Shown: positions 12,787-21,341 of the stretch, one piece after another | How positions within the stretch are numbered: position 1 is the stretch's first letter | Layout: each line of letters opens with the position of its first letter | IMG/VR virus record: IMGVR_UViG_3300028895_000256 | Coordinates: 1 to 46,999 of that record | Reading direction: 5' to 3' (one strand) | Source of the DNA: a virus | Length of the DNA: 46,999 nt | The notes under the pieces: model-generated | Seen by the model: the letters and a program-made list of their open reading frames with translations, nothing else | The model's database searches: none | What the model was told of the DNA's origin: nothing | Program-made: the position numbers and the translations under genes

Positions 12787-13254
12787 TCAAGAGGCGGGCG
12801 TGTCTGGCCGGCGATCAGGCTCCCAGAAGATCATGGCCGGTCCCTCGCCGGCCAGCTGGAGCACGGCATCGGTGAGCGCAGTGATCATGCTGTTCATGTT
12901 GGTTCTGGCTATCCCTGTATCGACCGTCTCCCACTCGCAGTTGTCCCGCAGGACCGTAGAGACTGCATCCTTGAGGTGGGAGATCGTCGACGGGCTGACC
13001 GGCGCCTTGGCGGCGTCCTTGGCCGTGGTGAAGCCGAAGACGACGACGTCCTCCATCTGCATGAAGTCGGTCACGAAGGTGATGCGCCCGTGAATCTCCC
13101 GGCCGGTCAGCCCGCCTGGCTCCATCCACTCCTGCAAGACGATGTTGTCCCCGGCCTGGAAGATCCGGTCATCGACCTTGCGGATCTCGAACCTCTTGGA
13201 TCCGTCGTGGATCCTGGCGAAGTACTCGGGCCACGTCTTGAGGTAGTGCTTCAT
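12787..13254 (-). CDS. DUF3850 (ASCH/PUA-like) protein with C-terminal helical repeat
   Basis: 155 residues starting MKHYLKTWPEYFARIHDGSK. The first 80 residues match the DUF3850 pattern: LKTWPEYF, KRFEIRK, FQAGDNIVLQEW, GREIHGRITFVTDF. This is an ASCH/PUA-like beta-barrel thought to bind RNA or nucleotides; phage copies have no proven role. The C-terminal 70 residues (from APVSPSTISHLKDAV) are a copy of the helical repeat found four times in the upstream gene, including the DNCE motif. Its ATG overlaps the upstream stop (ATGA), with GGGAGG seven to eight bases before. It is a two-domain fusion. Confidence 0.7.
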   Translation of the reverse strand: MKHYLKTWPEYFARIHDGSKRFEIRKVDDRIFQAGDNIVLQEWMEPGGLTGREIHGRITFVTDFMQMEDVVVFGFTTAKDAAKAPVSPSTISHLKDAVSTVLRDNCEWETVDTGIARTNMNSMITALTDAVLQLAGEGPAMIFWEPDRRPDTPAS

Positions 13255-14594
13255 GTCGTGGCCTCCCTGTCGTCCGGGCTGGCCGGCAGGTGAGTGCTGG
13301 ATTGCTTGTCGACTGCTTGGTTGAATGTCTCCCTTGTGAGCGGCGGACCCTCCGGCCCCCGGGGCTGAAGCTGCACTTCGAAGTGGTAGCCGGCGCCGGC
13401 GAGCTCCTCGATCGCCCGGACGATCGCGCTGATCAGGGCGTTCATGTTGTAGACTCGCCCGCCAGTGATGCCTGGCTGCAGATCCTCGCAGTTGTCTCCG
13501 ATCACCACGCCGGCCGCGTCCCGGAGCTCCTCGAGGGCCTCCGGGCTGAGGGCTGGCCGAGACTCCCGCGTAGCGATGGAGGGATCGCACTCCGGCTCAG
13601 GCTCCTCGTAGTGGGGGATCTCGAACCTGTCTTCACTGAAGTCTTTCCCTGCCAGCTTCCAGATCGCGTCCCGAACGAGGACCGCGAATACCTTTAGGGG
13701 CGGGTGCTCATCCTCTGCGGTCGGCGCTTCGAAGACGTGCCGGACCACCAGCTGCAGCTCCATGAGGGTGTCGTGGTCGAGGGCCGGGCGCTCCTCGAGC
13801 TCAGACACCACCGGCGAGGGCTGACGCTCAGACAGTTGCTTGATGGCGTCGAGGGTGCGGGCAGCGAAGGCCGCCTCCGGCTCGCCTTTGTTCCTCTCGA
13901 GGACGAGCCGGGTCGCCGCCTCGCCGAGCTCTTTCATCAACTCCGGGTCGACGCTGGGCTTGACCTCGCGATCGGTCCCGACCGGCACGGCCGGCATCTC
14001 TATCAGCTGCTCGAGCGCCTTGATCGTGGCCCGGGCGAAACTGACCGGCGGCGCGGTCTTCGTGGTGGACCGCGCCATGTGGTCCATGGCGTCTCGCATC
14101 GACTGCAGCAGGCCCTCCGGTATCGCCCGGCGCTGGTAGGCGGGCTGCATCTGGGGTGCGTCCGGCATCTGCTTGGCCCGCCGGTCGACCTCATCGTTCC
14201 GGATCATGTGGGCGACCAGCTGCTCGGCGACCGACTCCGGCAGGTAGAGCCGGGCCGGGCCGTCCGGGTCGGTCTCGATGCCGTGCGCCTCGCCGATGCA
14301 GAGGCCCTCCGGTGACTCCGCGATCTCCTGGAGGCGCTCGAGCATCATCATCGTCGCATTGATCGTGGCGCCCGTTATCTCGCGGGTCCAGCGGATGTGC
14401 TCCTCAAAGGCCGGCCCCATCCGGGAGCCCTCTGGATCCATGATCTTCAGCATGTCGGCTTGGTGGACGAGCTCCCGGTAGTGGCGCATGGCAACTTCGA
14501 GGGGGTCTGGTCCTTCGGCTGCAGCGTCGGCGGCGGGCGGTTCGTCGCTGGGCATGGTGATGCGCGGGTGTCCTGGCTTCGGTTTCTGATCCAT
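13251..14594 (-). CDS. Multi-repeat helical protein, unknown function
   Basis: 447 residues without a recognisable enzyme motif. Four copies of a 43-55 residue two-helix unit can be aligned by eye: about 158-200, 215-256, 271-317 and 348-402. Each has the form (I/L)..e.L.elr.a...v...(N/D)...  followed by ...a..vr.ai..Lag. The region 33-90 may be a degenerate fifth copy. The C-terminus (405-447) is proline-rich and polar. The same unit appears in the next gene and probably in the 67-residue gene after it, so the family has spread by duplication within this locus. No membrane segments. It probably acts as a cytoplasmic scaffold or binding protein, but that is a guess. Confidence 0.65.
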   Translation of the reverse strand: MDQKPKPGHPRITMPSDEPPAADAAAEGPDPLEVAMRHYRELVHQADMLKIMDPEGSRMGPAFEEHIRWTREITGATINATMMMLERLQEIAESPEGLCIGEAHGIETDPDGPARLYLPESVAEQLVAHMIRNDEVDRRAKQMPDAPQMQPAYQRRAIPEGLLQSMRDAMDHMARSTTKTAPPVSFARATIKALEQLIEMPAVPVGTDREVKPSVDPELMKELGEAATRLVLERNKGEPEAAFAARTLDAIKQLSERQPSPVVSELEERPALDHDTLMELQLVVRHVFEAPTAEDEHPPLKVFAVLVRDAIWKLAGKDFSEDRFEIPHYEEPEPECDPSIATRESRPALSPEALEELRDAAGVVIGDNCEDLQPGITGGRVYNMNALISAIVRAIEELAGAGYHFEVQLQPRGPEGPPLTRETFNQAVDKQSSTHLPASPDDREATT

Positions 14595-15646: not shown

Positions 15647-16078
15647 TCAGTGGTTCTTCATGCCCTCCAGCAGCTTGGTCGTCTCTGCGGTGATCCACGC
15701 GTCTGCGTAGCGGTTCAGGGTCCCGTCTGGCAGGACGAGCCCCAGCCGGATCGCCCGCTTCGCCGTCCCCGCCACGTCGATCGCGGCGCCGAGCAGCTGG
15801 CGCATGACGGTGGCGTCGGGCGCCAGCCCCTCCCAGGCGACGGCCGTCTGCTCGGCCGCCGGCAGGTCTGCCAAGTCCTCGACCTGCGCGGGCGGCTCCC
15901 CCGTGGCCTGGTAGTCGTCTGGGGCCGTCCCGATCGGCACCAGGTGCCAGATGGCGACTAGGCGCTGCAGGTAGTTGTCCCGCGCCATAATCTGGACCGA
16001 GCGCATCGCGTTTTCATCGGCCCTCAGAAGTTCAACGGCTTCAGTCTGTTGCTCCGTCAGAGGCTTCCTGTGAGCCAT
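15647..16078 (-). CDS. Unknown alpha-helical protein
   Basis: 143 residues from the second ATG (16076-16078, MAHRKPLTEQQTEAV), because the first one (16084) abuts GGAGG. Almost entirely helical by pattern: a charged N-terminal helix, ARDNYLQRLVAIWHLVPIG, a polar acidic linker (about 60-75), then ATVMRQLLGAAIDVAGTAKR and YADAWITAETTKLLEGM. It overlaps the 3' end of the methyltransferase gene by 38 bases in another frame. No family recognised. Confidence 0.6.
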   Translation of the reverse strand: MAHRKPLTEQQTEAVELLRADENAMRSVQIMARDNYLQRLVAIWHLVPIGTAPDDYQATGEPPAQVEDLADLPAAEQTAVAWEGLAPDATVMRQLLGAAIDVAGTAKRAIRLGLVLPDGTLNRYADAWITAETTKLLEGMKNH

Positions 16079-17759
16079 CGGCATCCTCCTCTCGGTGGAC
16101 GAGCTCGGCGTGGCCCCCCGTGAAATCCTCCCAGCGCCGGACCGCGATGTCGATGAAGGCGGGGTTCCGCTCGACCGCGTAGCACCGGCGCCCCGTGAGC
16201 TCTGCGGCGATCAGGCTGGTCCCGCTCCCGCAGAAGGCGTCGAGGATGATGTGCCCTGGGCGCGTGTGCTTCATCAGGGGGAGCTCGAAGACCCGGACCG
16301 GCTTCTGGGTAGGGTGCAGCCCGGCGCTGCGGGATCGCCCTTCCCAGCCCGCCTCCCAGACGTTGGAGTACTCGCCGGCGACCGGGTTGAGCATCGGCTT
16401 GTGGCCCTTCACCCAGCCCATGGCCAGGTGCTTGGCTCGCCGCTCCCACTCGACCAGGTCATCTGGGCCTTCGATGGCCAGCAGCCCCTCGATCAGGCGC
16501 CCGATCTTCGCCTGGGTCTCGCTCCAGGGCTTACGCTCCCCGTTCTCGTTCCGACCAAGGTAGCAGGGCTCGCATCTCCAATTCCAGACGCTGAAGCCCA
16601 TCACGTGGGTCGGCTTGACCCAGGTGATCGCTTGGTGGACGCGGATCCCGGCCGCCGCGAGGGCCTCGCGGAAGACGTGGGCGGTGCTGCTGGCGTGCCA
16701 GACGTACCAGGCGGCGTTCTCGCGGGTGACGCCGGCGATGGCGTTGAAGGCGCGGACCAGGAAGTCCTTGAAGTGAGCCTGGCTCGGAAAATGATCCCAG
16801 GTTTCAGAATCCCACTCCGGCGCTGGCGGCTCGCCGGTGACTTCTGGGGTCTCGCCGCGCTCCCGGGCCTCCGCGGCGGCCTTGCGGGCGCCGGCGGCCG
16901 ACCGGGCCCAGCGCCCGAGCGCCAGGTCGGCCTGCGCATGGCAGTGCTTGCAGAGGATCTGGATGTTGCTGGGATCGTTGTTGTAGGTGTCCCCGTCGAC
17001 GTGGTGGCGGGTGAGGGTTACGCCGGGATCGGCGTTAGTGCGGTTGCACCGCTTCCCGTCGCGTATCCCCTCGCAGCTGCTGTCTGAGGTGATCGGGACG
17101 AGGCGCTGGGCCCGCTTACGGGCGCTGACCCGGCTGCAGTCGTATCCCACGCCGTAAGGGGGGTCGGTGATCACGATGTGGGCCTTCCGGCCGTCCATCA
17201 GCGCCGCGTAGGTCTCCGGGCGCAGGCTGTCCGCACAAATGAGCCGGTGGCGGCCGAGTTCCCAGATGTCCCCCAGCTTGGCTGTGGGGTCCTCGGGTGG
17301 TTCCGGCACGTCATCCTGCCCGGGCTTGGTCTTCACTGGGACCTGGCGCAGCAGCCTGCGGTTCTGAGCCTCGAGCTCCTCGAGGCGCAGGGCCTCGAAG
17401 GCTTCGGGGAGCGCCTGCTCGATCTCCGCGATCAGGTCGTGGACGTCGACGGTGAAGTGTCCGGCGAGGGCTGGGCTGTTGAGTGCGAGGTTCAGCGCCT
17501 TTTCCTCTTCGATCTCCAGGTCAACCACGACCACCGGGCTCTCGGTCTCGCCGGCCTCGATCAGGATCTCCCTCCGTTGATGGCCCCCGACGAGGTTTCC
17601 GGTGCGACGGTTCCAGACCGGGAGGTCGACCAGCCCGAAGCGCTCGAGGGAATTCTGCAGGCCGGCCCGCTCCTGATCGGTGATCCCCCTCGGATTGTAG
17701 TCGGCCGGGGTGAGGTCCTGGAGCTTCAGGATCTCGATGGTCGGCTTCTGGATTGGCAT
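16041..17759 (-). CDS. ParB-like domain fused to DNA methyltransferase with inserted HNH domain
   Basis: 572 residues. Residues about 8-135 are a ParB/Srx-like domain: NPRGITDQERAGLQNSLERF, then VGGHQRREIL (57-66). Residues about 160-550 are an amino-methyltransferase of the beta class (motif IV before motif I): GRHRLICADSL, TDPPYGVGYD (198-207), and FCGSGTSLIAAEL (509-521). Between motif IV and the next fold element lies an insertion with C229, C238, HH at 252-253, NN at 260-261 and CKHCH (270-274), the pattern of an HNH nuclease zinc fold. Expected activity is N4-cytosine or N6-adenine methylation, which could protect phage DNA from host restriction. The start follows a run of GGAGG repeats. 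Confidence 0.85.
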   Translation of the reverse strand: MPIQKPTIEILKLQDLTPADYNPRGITDQERAGLQNSLERFGLVDLPVWNRRTGNLVGGHQRREILIEAGETESPVVVVDLEIEEEKALNLALNSPALAGHFTVDVHDLIAEIEQALPEAFEALRLEELEAQNRRLLRQVPVKTKPGQDDVPEPPEDPTAKLGDIWELGRHRLICADSLRPETYAALMDGRKAHIVITDPPYGVGYDCSRVSARKRAQRLVPITSDSSCEGIRDGKRCNRTNADPGVTLTRHHVDGDTYNNDPSNIQILCKHCHAQADLALGRWARSAAGARKAAAEARERGETPEVTGEPPAPEWDSETWDHFPSQAHFKDFLVRAFNAIAGVTRENAAWYVWHASSTAHVFREALAAAGIRVHQAITWVKPTHVMGFSVWNWRCEPCYLGRNENGERKPWSETQAKIGRLIEGLLAIEGPDDLVEWERRAKHLAMGWVKGHKPMLNPVAGEYSNVWEAGWEGRSRSAGLHPTQKPVRVFELPLMKHTRPGHIILDAFCGSGTSLIAAELTGRRCYAVERNPAFIDIAVRRWEDFTGGHAELVHREEDADGSQEASDGATD

Positions 17760-19397: not shown

Positions 19398-19615
19398 GGT
19401 TTCCTCCCCATCCTCAACAAGGAAGCGGCGATAAGCGATCTACTGATCTTGTTATGGACGATCTCCTCGATGTCATTCCGGCGCTCGACGTTGTTGCCCC
19501 AGATCATCAAGAAGACGCCGATCGCCGCCATCCATCCTGCGGCGAGCCAGACGAGCGTGATGCCCACCAGGCCGATTGCGCATCCGGTGATGCACCTGAT
19601 TAATTTGGACTTCAT
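19394..19615 (-). CDS. Small inner-membrane protein, one or two TM segments
   Basis: 73 residues. A hydrophobic region at about 11-42 (ITGCAIGLVGITLVWLAAGW then MAAIGVFLMIWG) is long enough for two closely spaced membrane helices, followed by a charged C-terminal helix with ERRNDIEEIVHNKISRS. Good ribosome site; ATGA overlaps on both sides. Candidate for superinfection exclusion or membrane modification, but nothing specific supports that. Confidence 0.65.
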   Translation of the reverse strand: MKSKLIRCITGCAIGLVGITLVWLAAGWMAAIGVFLMIWGNNVERRNDIEEIVHNKISRSLIAASLLRMGRKP

Positions 19616-20538
19616 TCTCCTGCCTCCGTGTTGGGGTATTCGTCGTGGATCTTGCCGTCGAGGGTGCGGCCGGAGTGCTTCTTTCCGACGAGGTGCATCG
19701 AGACCTGGTTTCGGCCCATCGCGACTGGGCCGTCCATGTAAACCTCCGATGCCATACTAATCTGTCTCTTTCTGTAGCACGCAGCGCGCAGGTCCCTGTC
19801 GTAGCACGCTTCGCTGTATGGGACCCAGCTGCCCCACTGCTTGAAGACGAAAGGGACGCCAGCTTCGGCGCATTGGTCGCGCAGGGAACGGGGCCAGTCG
19901 GGGTGCATGGGCCGAGCGCCGGGGCCGGACTCCCCGCCGCAGATGACCCAATCGAGCCCAATGAGCGTGGTTCCCTTCATGCTCTCCGGGCCATCTATGT
20001 AGACGCCGGTTTGCAGGTCGACCGGCCCCAACATCGGCTCGACGCTCACGAACCGGACCGCCGCCGGCGTCCGCAGGAGCCATGGGATCCGGACGTCGGC
20101 CCACTTTTGGTTCTCGACGCTCGTGCCGCACCAGATGTTGGCCGGCGGCGGCGCCCCGTCGAGGGTGCAGGTGATCCAAAATTGCATGACCTGTGGTCGT
20201 TTGGTGAGCAGCAGGTAGGTGTTCCAGGGGGTCTCGACCATCGTGTCCCAGACCGCCTTGACCCAGGCGGTGTCCATGTCCTCATGGAACAGGTCGCCCA
20301 TGCTGTCGACGAAGACGAGCCGGCGCTCGCCGGGCTTGGGCTTCGGCCACCTGCGCGGCTGATCGATTCGGTCGGGATGGAAGGTCGGCCGGAAGGGGTT
20401 GTCGGCCGGGTACCCGAACCGGCCGCGCATGCGGGTGGCCATGCGCTCGGCGTAGCAGTTGGCGCAGCCTGCGCTGACCTTCGTGCAGCCGGTGATGGGG
20501 TTCCAGGTCTCGTGGCACCACTCGATCTTGGTCGGCAT
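19612..20538 (-). CDS. Gp37/Gp68-type (DUF5131) three-cysteine phage protein
   Basis: 308 residues. I prefer the ATG at 20536-20538 (MPTKIEWCHETWNPITGC) since the GTG two codons earlier is too close to AAAGGA. Family features: IEWCHETWNPITGC, C18-x6-C25-x2-C28 (the three-Cys motif), LVFVDSMGDLFHEDM, LLLTKRP, IWCGTSVENQ, VSVEPMLGPVDL, WVICGGESGPGARP and FKQWGSW. This is the widespread Gp37/Gp68 family, suspected of radical-SAM-like chemistry because of the cysteine cluster; its substrate is not established. Full-length, with all hallmark segments present. Confidence 0.8.
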   Translation of the reverse strand: MPTKIEWCHETWNPITGCTKVSAGCANCYAERMATRMRGRFGYPADNPFRPTFHPDRIDQPRRWPKPKPGERRLVFVDSMGDLFHEDMDTAWVKAVWDTMVETPWNTYLLLTKRPQVMQFWITCTLDGAPPPANIWCGTSVENQKWADVRIPWLLRTPAAVRFVSVEPMLGPVDLQTGVYIDGPESMKGTTLIGLDWVICGGESGPGARPMHPDWPRSLRDQCAEAGVPFVFKQWGSWVPYSEACYDRDLRAACYRKRQISMASEVYMDGPVAMGRNQVSMHLVGKKHSGRTLDGKIHDEYPNTEAGE

Positions 20539-20540
20539 GA

Positions 20541-21341
20541 TCACGTTCCTTTCTCTGCCATCTTGGAGTAGAGCTTCCTGAACACTTGGAGCTTGGCGAT
20601 CGTCTCGTCGAGGGTTCGCCCGACTCCCGGCGGGACGCCTGCCATAAGTTCACTCATCCTATTACGGAATTCCCACGACGTTGCATCAGGGTCGAGACCA
20701 TGGGACTTGAGCACCTTCTTGAAGCCCTCATACCTCTCAACCTCCCGCTTCGCCTGGTCGCGTTGTTGGCGGAGCTCGAGCCAGCCCTTTCGGATCTCTT
20801 CATGGATGTGCGCAGCTAGTAGCCGCCGGTCGGCCATGTCACTTTTCAGCCGCTCCATGCGCTCTGCACGGTCGAGATCCGGATCGCCCCCTCGGGACTC
20901 GCGCATGACTGCCCGATTGATCAGCAGGCTCTTGAGCACATCGAACAGCGCATCCTTGTCCGGCGCTCGGGCAGGCGCGTGCTTCTTGGTGAAGAGGCGT
21001 GTCCCGGTTTTTGCGGCGACCAGGAGTCCGGCCTCTGGCGGGATCTCGGTGGGGTCGCAGATCCCTGGGGCGGTGACGAAGAAGAACTCGGTGCAGTAGT
21101 CGAGGTACTTCCTCCACTTGGCGTCGCGGATGAAGTCTGAGCGCGTGACCTTGATCTCGTATCCCCACACGCGGGGGTCGGTCCAGCTGCGCTTCATCGC
21201 CCAGGCGTCCAGCTGCCCGTAGCCATGCGCGTAGGCGGTGCCGGTCGGGCACTCGCCGACCAGCAGGTCCCGTGTGTGCCGTGTCTGTAGGAGCCCGTAG
21301 AGCAGGCTCGCCGTGAACTTGACCGGTTCGGCTTTACCCAT
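20541..21341 (-). CDS. MmcB-like PD-(D/E)XK nuclease family protein
   Basis: 266 residues. Residues 40-110 contain GYGQLDAWAMKRSW (D45), GYEIKVTRSDFIRDAKWRKY (E62-x-K64) and FFFVTAPGICDPTEIPPEAG, the D...ExK core and following strand of the MmcB/DUF-type restriction-like fold. The C-terminal half (about 140-266) is charged and coiled-coil-like. Related bacterial proteins are tied to DNA repair and mutagenesis; phage copies may process phage or host DNA. It follows a small SH3-like gene and overlaps it by 8 bases. Confidence 0.7.
   Translation of the reverse strand: MGKAEPVKFTASLLYGLLQTRHTRDLLVGECPTGTAYAHGYGQLDAWAMKRSWTDPRVWGYEIKVTRSDFIRDAKWRKYLDYCTEFFFVTAPGICDPTEIPPEAGLLVAAKTGTRLFTKKHAPARAPDKDALFDVLKSLLINRAVMRESRGGDPDLDRAERMERLKSDMADRRLLAAHIHEEIRKGWLELRQQRDQAKREVERYEGFKKVLKSHGLDPDATSWEFRNRMSELMAGVPPGVGRTLDETIAKLQVFRKLYSKMAEKGT

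Follow-up and report, generated by a model that had tools for sequence, protein, structure and literature searches.

How a DNA-modifying enzyme comes to carry a nuclease fold within its catalytic domain, and what that fold does there, is the question raised by a gene of 572 codons in an IMG/VR virus record of 46,999 bases, the whole of which is referred to here as the window. We regard the record as a phage genome because it holds genes for a Mu-type portal, a Mu-F protein, a terminase and a major capsid protein E; the phage that carries the gene is known from metagenome sequence only. The open reading frame runs uninterrupted on the minus strand from position 17759 to 16041, and its product (P0001) consists of a ParB domain fused to a β-class DNA methyltransferase (phrog_498 DNA methyltransferase, 2.4e-103; PADLOC MTase_II, 1.9e-74) with an HNH insert. 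A sequence-only reading had already placed an HNH in the methyltransferase after motif IV, and all the positions it gave (DPPYG, C229, C238, HH252-253, NN260-261 and CKHCH270-274) were exact when compared with the translation. The window also encodes a DUF3850/ASCH domain protein (12787-13590, minus strand, 3.1e-18), a domain to which phage ParB proteins are frequently fused according to excerpts of a ParB survey (PMC12704722), and a DUF5131 protein (19612-20544, minus strand, 1.3e-91). Mycobacterium phage Jung has a protein whose start (IEWTDATWNPVTGC) resembles this DUF5131 protein, encoded just downstream of an HNH-methyltransferase gene pair.

We examined the parts of the protein outside the insert by profile, alignment and structure prediction. 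At the N-terminus, the ParB/CTPase-type domain (residues 1-110; 17430..17759, minus strand) matches phrog_620 ParB-like proteins (9.9e-23), its family profile aligns to Spo0J/ParB structures (6sdk, 1.6e-11), Foldseek returns the same structure (1.6e-5), and the G-x-H/R-R box of the fold is present as GGHQR at residues 58-62. The methyltransferase begins with residues 163-207 (17139..17273, minus strand), which extend through motif IV, DPPYG (residues 199-203; 17151..17165, minus strand); the DPPY is invariant in the alignment of relatives, from which this segment was delimited, and its pLDDT is ~97. After the insert it continues through residues 314-548 (16116..16820, minus strand), containing W-V-K at 380-382, HPTQKP at 482-487 and motif I, FCGSG, at 509-513. 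The order of motifs, with DPPYG at 199 ahead of FCGSG at 509, is that of the β class, and PF01555 is matched at 5.9e-20. Between W-V-K and HPTQKP lies a variable region (residues 388-478; 16326..16598, minus strand) that in the alignment is longer than its counterpart in most relatives, has a pLDDT of 42-67 in part and is probably the target recognition region. Taken as a whole, the predicted methyltransferase structure overlays M.BceJIV and CcrM with a VIA-align Z of ~22 and an rmsd of 3.0-3.3 over 216-222 residues, and in the AlphaFold model the pLDDT is ~95 on each side of the insert. With its motifs conserved and its predicted fold in place, the host methyltransferase core is otherwise normal.

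To define the insert we used 80 IMG/VR loci found with the family profile, measuring the distance from DPPY to W-x-K wherever the methyltransferase reading frame allowed it; the final alignment was picked by a scored search. This distance is 65-123 residues in the measured relatives, mostly 69-84, compared with ~176 in P0001, and no HNH was present in the measured insert-free methyltransferases of the 80-locus set. The homology to other HNH proteins begins at residue ~204-209, and methyltransferase sequence returns at ~314-329, close to the residue ~318 proposed earlier. The closest insert-free relatives (L017, L019, L030 and L062) read DPPYxVxYTG...GKDWS...F at the insertion site, and on the basis of their sequence there we set the restart at ~E314-W315. 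Given these two limits, the insert takes the place of the variable loop that joins motif IV to the next helix. It comprises residues 208-313 (16821..17138, minus strand), ~106 residues where about 110 had been estimated, is in frame and absent from the aligned relatives, and consists of the HNH module, with which homologues align from ~209, followed by a helical, low-confidence tail.

The HNH core spans residues 229-277 (16929..17075, minus strand) and includes C229, C238, H252, H253, N260, N261, N265, C270, C273 and H274. Its match to PF01844 (residues 237-276; 16932-17051) scores 16.7 bits in the whole protein and 18.2 bits for the insert alone, both below the gathering score of 21.4, while PHROG HNH families match the insert at up to 4.8e-7. 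A hidden Markov model (HMM) built from 19 other phage HNH modules, with P0001 left out, scored 59.8 bits against the protein (E 1.6e-17), compared with 7.8 bits for the best of 2000 proteins in which the insert had been shuffled. When all 20 modules are aligned, C229, C238, H252, H253, D255, N260, N261, N265, C270 and H274 are invariant and C273 is nearly so, and P0001 retains every one of these columns, including the metal- and catalytic-type residues and the C4 zinc site. A departure from the family is seen at the first zinc knuckle, which is C-x8-C here and C-x2-C in the relatives; the six extra residues could weaken zinc binding.

The AlphaFold model of the HNH, which was computed together with its relatives, places a helix, the zinc knuckle, strands 249-253 and 266-270 and a helix starting at 271 within residues ~210-280 at a pLDDT of 93-97, and this region is thus predicted to be a ββα metal fold. 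Its neighbours among solved structures are mostly HNH, ββα-Me or HNH-like proteins, the top one being the Gme HNH nicking endonuclease with a Z of 4.3, a value that is low in absolute terms and not decisive, as are the Foldseek E-values, which exceed 1. Folds this small are expected to give low Z scores and high Foldseek E-values. Long loops are found at the same place in some other β-class methyltransferases (L016, L035, L040, L042 and others), and one might accordingly take the cysteines and histidines for an ordinary, zinc-binding target domain of the methyltransferase, with no insertion at all. Those long loops, however, lack the HNH motif, the Cys/His cluster is missing from the insert-free relatives with which P0001 was aligned, and the module shares homology with HNHs encoded as genes of their own (at the E-value given above) and is predicted to fold separately, as a ββα unit; we consider the ordinary-domain explanation almost certainly wrong. 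The HMM, the alignment and the structure prediction all bear out the earlier proposal of an inserted HNH and, judged from sequence and model, the insert is a complete-looking HNH domain of the type found in selfish homing genes.

Could the insert be removed before the mature protein is formed, or not exist in the phage at all? It begins with C208, as inteins can, and it is carried by one metagenomic assembly only, both of which would be compatible with an unrecognised intein, an intron or an assembly artefact. Against this, P0001 has no Pfam match to Intein_splicing, a domain that was found in L115, and the insert does not end in HN-C/S/T; no Rfam group I or group II intron family matched the window between 15500 and 18500 at E <= 1; and both ends of the insert are in frame. 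Its GC3 of 0.90 is also native-like, the rest of the gene having 0.87-0.88. An explanation by splicing or artefact is therefore very improbable and, in view of the absence of an intein, of a recognisable intron and of a frame break, the gene would appear to produce a single, unspliced protein of 572 residues.

The nearest relatives of the HNH are stand-alone phage genes, among them gp55 of Mycobacterium phage Jung and L105, L107 and L108. The same HNH type, and not LAGLIDADG, also forms the endonuclease part of three ThyX inteins (L115:3220-4986, L124:2143-3786 and L157:1948-3693) and one DnaE intein (L136:877-5544), the intein assignment resting on a Pfam match for L115 and on reading of the sequence for L124, L157 and L136. 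Because this HNH type occurs both in stand-alone phage genes and in intein endonucleases, the insert appears to be a homing-type HNH, and the homing-endonuclease origin that the sequence-only reading had listed as one option is well supported by these comparisons. Many of the stand-alone relatives possess an N-terminal region, often of 85-115 residues, that is missing from the insert. By eye this region seemed to contain a NUMOD3-like motif, for which Pfam gave no support.

A β-class methyltransferase gene lies within 2.6 kb of 6 of the 12 HNHs that score best with the HMM and of 5 of the 68 others (Fisher p ~0.001), figures that serve as a lead and not as a test because the loci were retrieved with the 572-residue protein and the cut was chosen after looking. 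They nevertheless suggest that a pairing of methyltransferase genes with HNHs of this subfamily is recurrent. A stand-alone HNH is located just upstream of a β-class methyltransferase gene in L102, L108, L116 and L095 and ~1 kb away in L123, and several of the reading frames overlap.

A homing origin raises the prospect that the gene is still an active selfish element, the protein cutting insert-free alleles of the same loop in co-infecting phages and being copied into them by repair, which would make it the in-frame equivalent of the ShiLan element described below. Several observations are in line with this. The catalytic-type residues are all intact, HNHs of the same type often adjoin methyltransferase genes, HNH-in-methylase elements with a disjunct distribution have been described, and the methylase family of that study also includes a lone LAGLIDADG endonuclease for which neither splicing domain nor intron was found (PMC11855218). 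Moreover, the only near-identical contig, L001:1-688 (IMGVR_UViG_3300018065_000844), which comes from another metagenome, begins inside the gene at residue 344, 31 residues past the insert, possibly because assembly broke at a presence/absence polymorphism; a contig end can, however, have many causes, and no insert-free allele is known for the phage that carries P0001. The insert also lacks a stop codon of its own, and the N-terminal region of many stand-alone relatives has been lost from it. Homing specificity usually lies in that region of stand-alone HNHs. Since this region is gone and a single occurrence was found, a fully equipped homing gene is disfavoured, and we judge continued selfish activity to be rather unlikely.

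The position of the insert provides a different perspective. From a profile alignment to the CcrM structure 6pbd, the insertion site would fall in the loop that begins with DPPY and be the equivalent of the DNA-contacting loop-2B, which in CcrM enters the DNA (PMC13092597), and for this reason an effect of the insert on DNA recognition is plausible. A substitute for target recognition and a nicking activity were the other roles that the sequence-only reading had suggested as possible. Together with the intact catalytic residues and the proximity of 6 of the 12 closest HNHs, compared with 5 of 68, to a β-class methyltransferase gene (p ~0.001, with the bias from retrieval and the choice of cut noted above), this location is what one might expect of a bifunctional modification-nicking enzyme in which the methyltransferase and ParB parts pick the site at which the HNH would cut or nick DNA that is unmodified. 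The carrier phage would then have to protect its own sites, and no conserved family of such fusions was found in the collections searched; this explanation is in our view unlikely. The architecture is compatible with a putative single-chain restriction-modification enzyme, with nuclease and methyltransferase directed to one target. As a specific and clearly speculative version, which we think improbable, the ParB and methyltransferase parts would aim the loop-borne HNH and mark the phage's own DNA, and unmarked competitor DNA or insert-free alleles would be nicked or cut.

We searched for further cases in several ways. No second protein of this architecture came to light in the material searched, which comprised IMG/VR, GTDB genome contigs and two sets of records, 50,697 from phages and 72,556 from plasmids, in keeping with the earlier description of an HNH in this loop as unusual. 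Viral and genome contigs were scanned with DNA patterns for DPPY...HH...CxxCH, which are exact and limited in spacing, so that rare divergent members could escape them; the matches in viral contigs proved to be chance after translation in all three frames. An HNH-anchored scan, judged with the full protein, yielded 71 loci, none of them fused. Among the listed matches, which came from 528 records of phages and 71 of plasmids, query coverage was at most 85%, which speaks against a fused relative, as such a protein would rank first, and no record covered 80% of a query that spanned the insert and both flanks. Candidates that looked fused in tblastn (L102, L108, L115 and L123) turned out to be neighbouring genes or an intein, L098 has no fused reading frame, and the HNH in a methylase of Staphylococcus phage CUB-EPI_14 is out of frame.

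That P0001 is the sole case found fits a transient state, such as a tolerated relic in which the HNH is silent or irrelevant and persists since the loop tolerates insertions. The natural variability of the loop in relatives, where the DPPY to W-x-K distance differs almost twofold, and the expanded zinc knuckle point the same way. An old relic would not, however, be expected to retain all the residues that are invariant in the 20 HNH modules, and the intact HNH residues lead us to disfavour it; the base composition, like that of the rest of the gene, is a further point against a relic. A relic is nonetheless quite possible and, of the present roles weighed here, the likeliest, its chances falling somewhat short of even.

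The explanation that we prefer, with a probability of roughly 62%, is the in-frame capture of a homing-type phage HNH by a ParB-fused β-class (N6-adenine-type) methyltransferase, at the variable loop that follows motif IV and faces the DNA. In this capture a phage homing-type HNH module would have landed in frame in the loop directly after motif IV, and one chain of 572 residues would be made with no splicing. More tentatively, the methyltransferase may keep working, and the methyltransferase and ParB parts might hold the HNH on the DNA, as suggested by the loss of the N-terminal region of the stand-alone relatives; the HNH might then contribute DNA contacts or nicking near methyltransferase sites. 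That the HNH is at present an active nicking, cleaving or DNA-binding part of the enzyme is a tentative proposal, with the odds against it. An in-frame version makes it directly testable how a selfish insertion turns into a folded segment of an enzyme, and its placement at the loop with which CcrM enters DNA tests whether target recognition can accommodate, or even use, a foreign nuclease fold. If the HNH is active, the two activities would share a single active-site neighbourhood in a compact nuclease-methyltransferase.

The closest precedents are the HNH sequences that Arsenault et al. (2025) described as hidden out of frame in the phage methylases ShiLan gp65 and Pacc40 gp60, whose alleles have a disjunct distribution and whose translation was a puzzle in that description (PMC11855218). 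As in P0001, an HNH lies within a phage methylase gene, the methylase frame is open and there is neither an intein nor a recognisable intron (PMC11855218, PMC9957025), and stand-alone HNH genes adjoin related methylases; ShiLan gp65 is itself a DPPY methylase with an HNH gene, gp64, directly upstream. The ShiLan-type HNHs, however, are out of frame with a GTG start and stop of their own, whereas the HNH of P0001 is in the methyltransferase frame, with no stop before residue 572. In addition, ShiLan gp65 begins directly with the methyltransferase and has no ParB domain, and its HNH belongs to another, distantly related subfamily (E 1.7e-4 with our HMM). Staphylococcus phage CUB-EPI_14 contains what looks like another ShiLan-type hidden HNH, a 160-residue reading frame (L096:1309-1791; 51.8 bits, E 7.4e-16 with the HMM) that lies within the gene for gp45 (CDS 150-1955), a C5-cytosine methyltransferase, but out of frame with it; the IME-SA4 homologue of gp45, of 426 residues and 75% identity, is without most of the extra region. 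Taj_79 and other cluster F methylases likewise contain a homing-type endonuclease domain for which neither a splicing domain nor an intron was detected (PMC9957025, PMC11855218), but there it is a LAGLIDADG and not an HNH domain, it is vertically inherited in its clade, and no ParB domain is mentioned for that methylase family.

The separate parts of P0001 also have known counterparts. Phage ParB-methyltransferases of phrog_498 and PADLOC PDLC03229 share its ParB and β-class backbone, and the relatives examined are without the HNH insert. CcrM (6pbd) and M.BceJIV (9c3u) share the β-class N6-adenine methyltransferase fold with the Z given above, but have a short loop after motif IV (loop-2B in CcrM, with R44) and neither ParB nor HNH. 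The stand-alone HNHs of Jung (gp55), L105, L107 and L108 are 42-57% identical over the HNH core and have in common with it the R-x-RA helix, HHVDG, NN and C-x2-C-H, yet they are separate genes, many with the extra N-terminal region. Bacterial ParB-HNH fusions, as described in the survey excerpts, combine a ParB fold and an HNH in one protein; there HNH (in bacteria) and N6/N4-methyltransferase (in phages) appear as separate ParB partners, and those excerpts contain no ParB-methyltransferase-HNH architecture (PMC12704722). An HNH within a methylase is thus already known, and what is new in P0001 is that the HNH is in frame, that the methyltransferase is fused to ParB, and the subfamily to which the HNH belongs.
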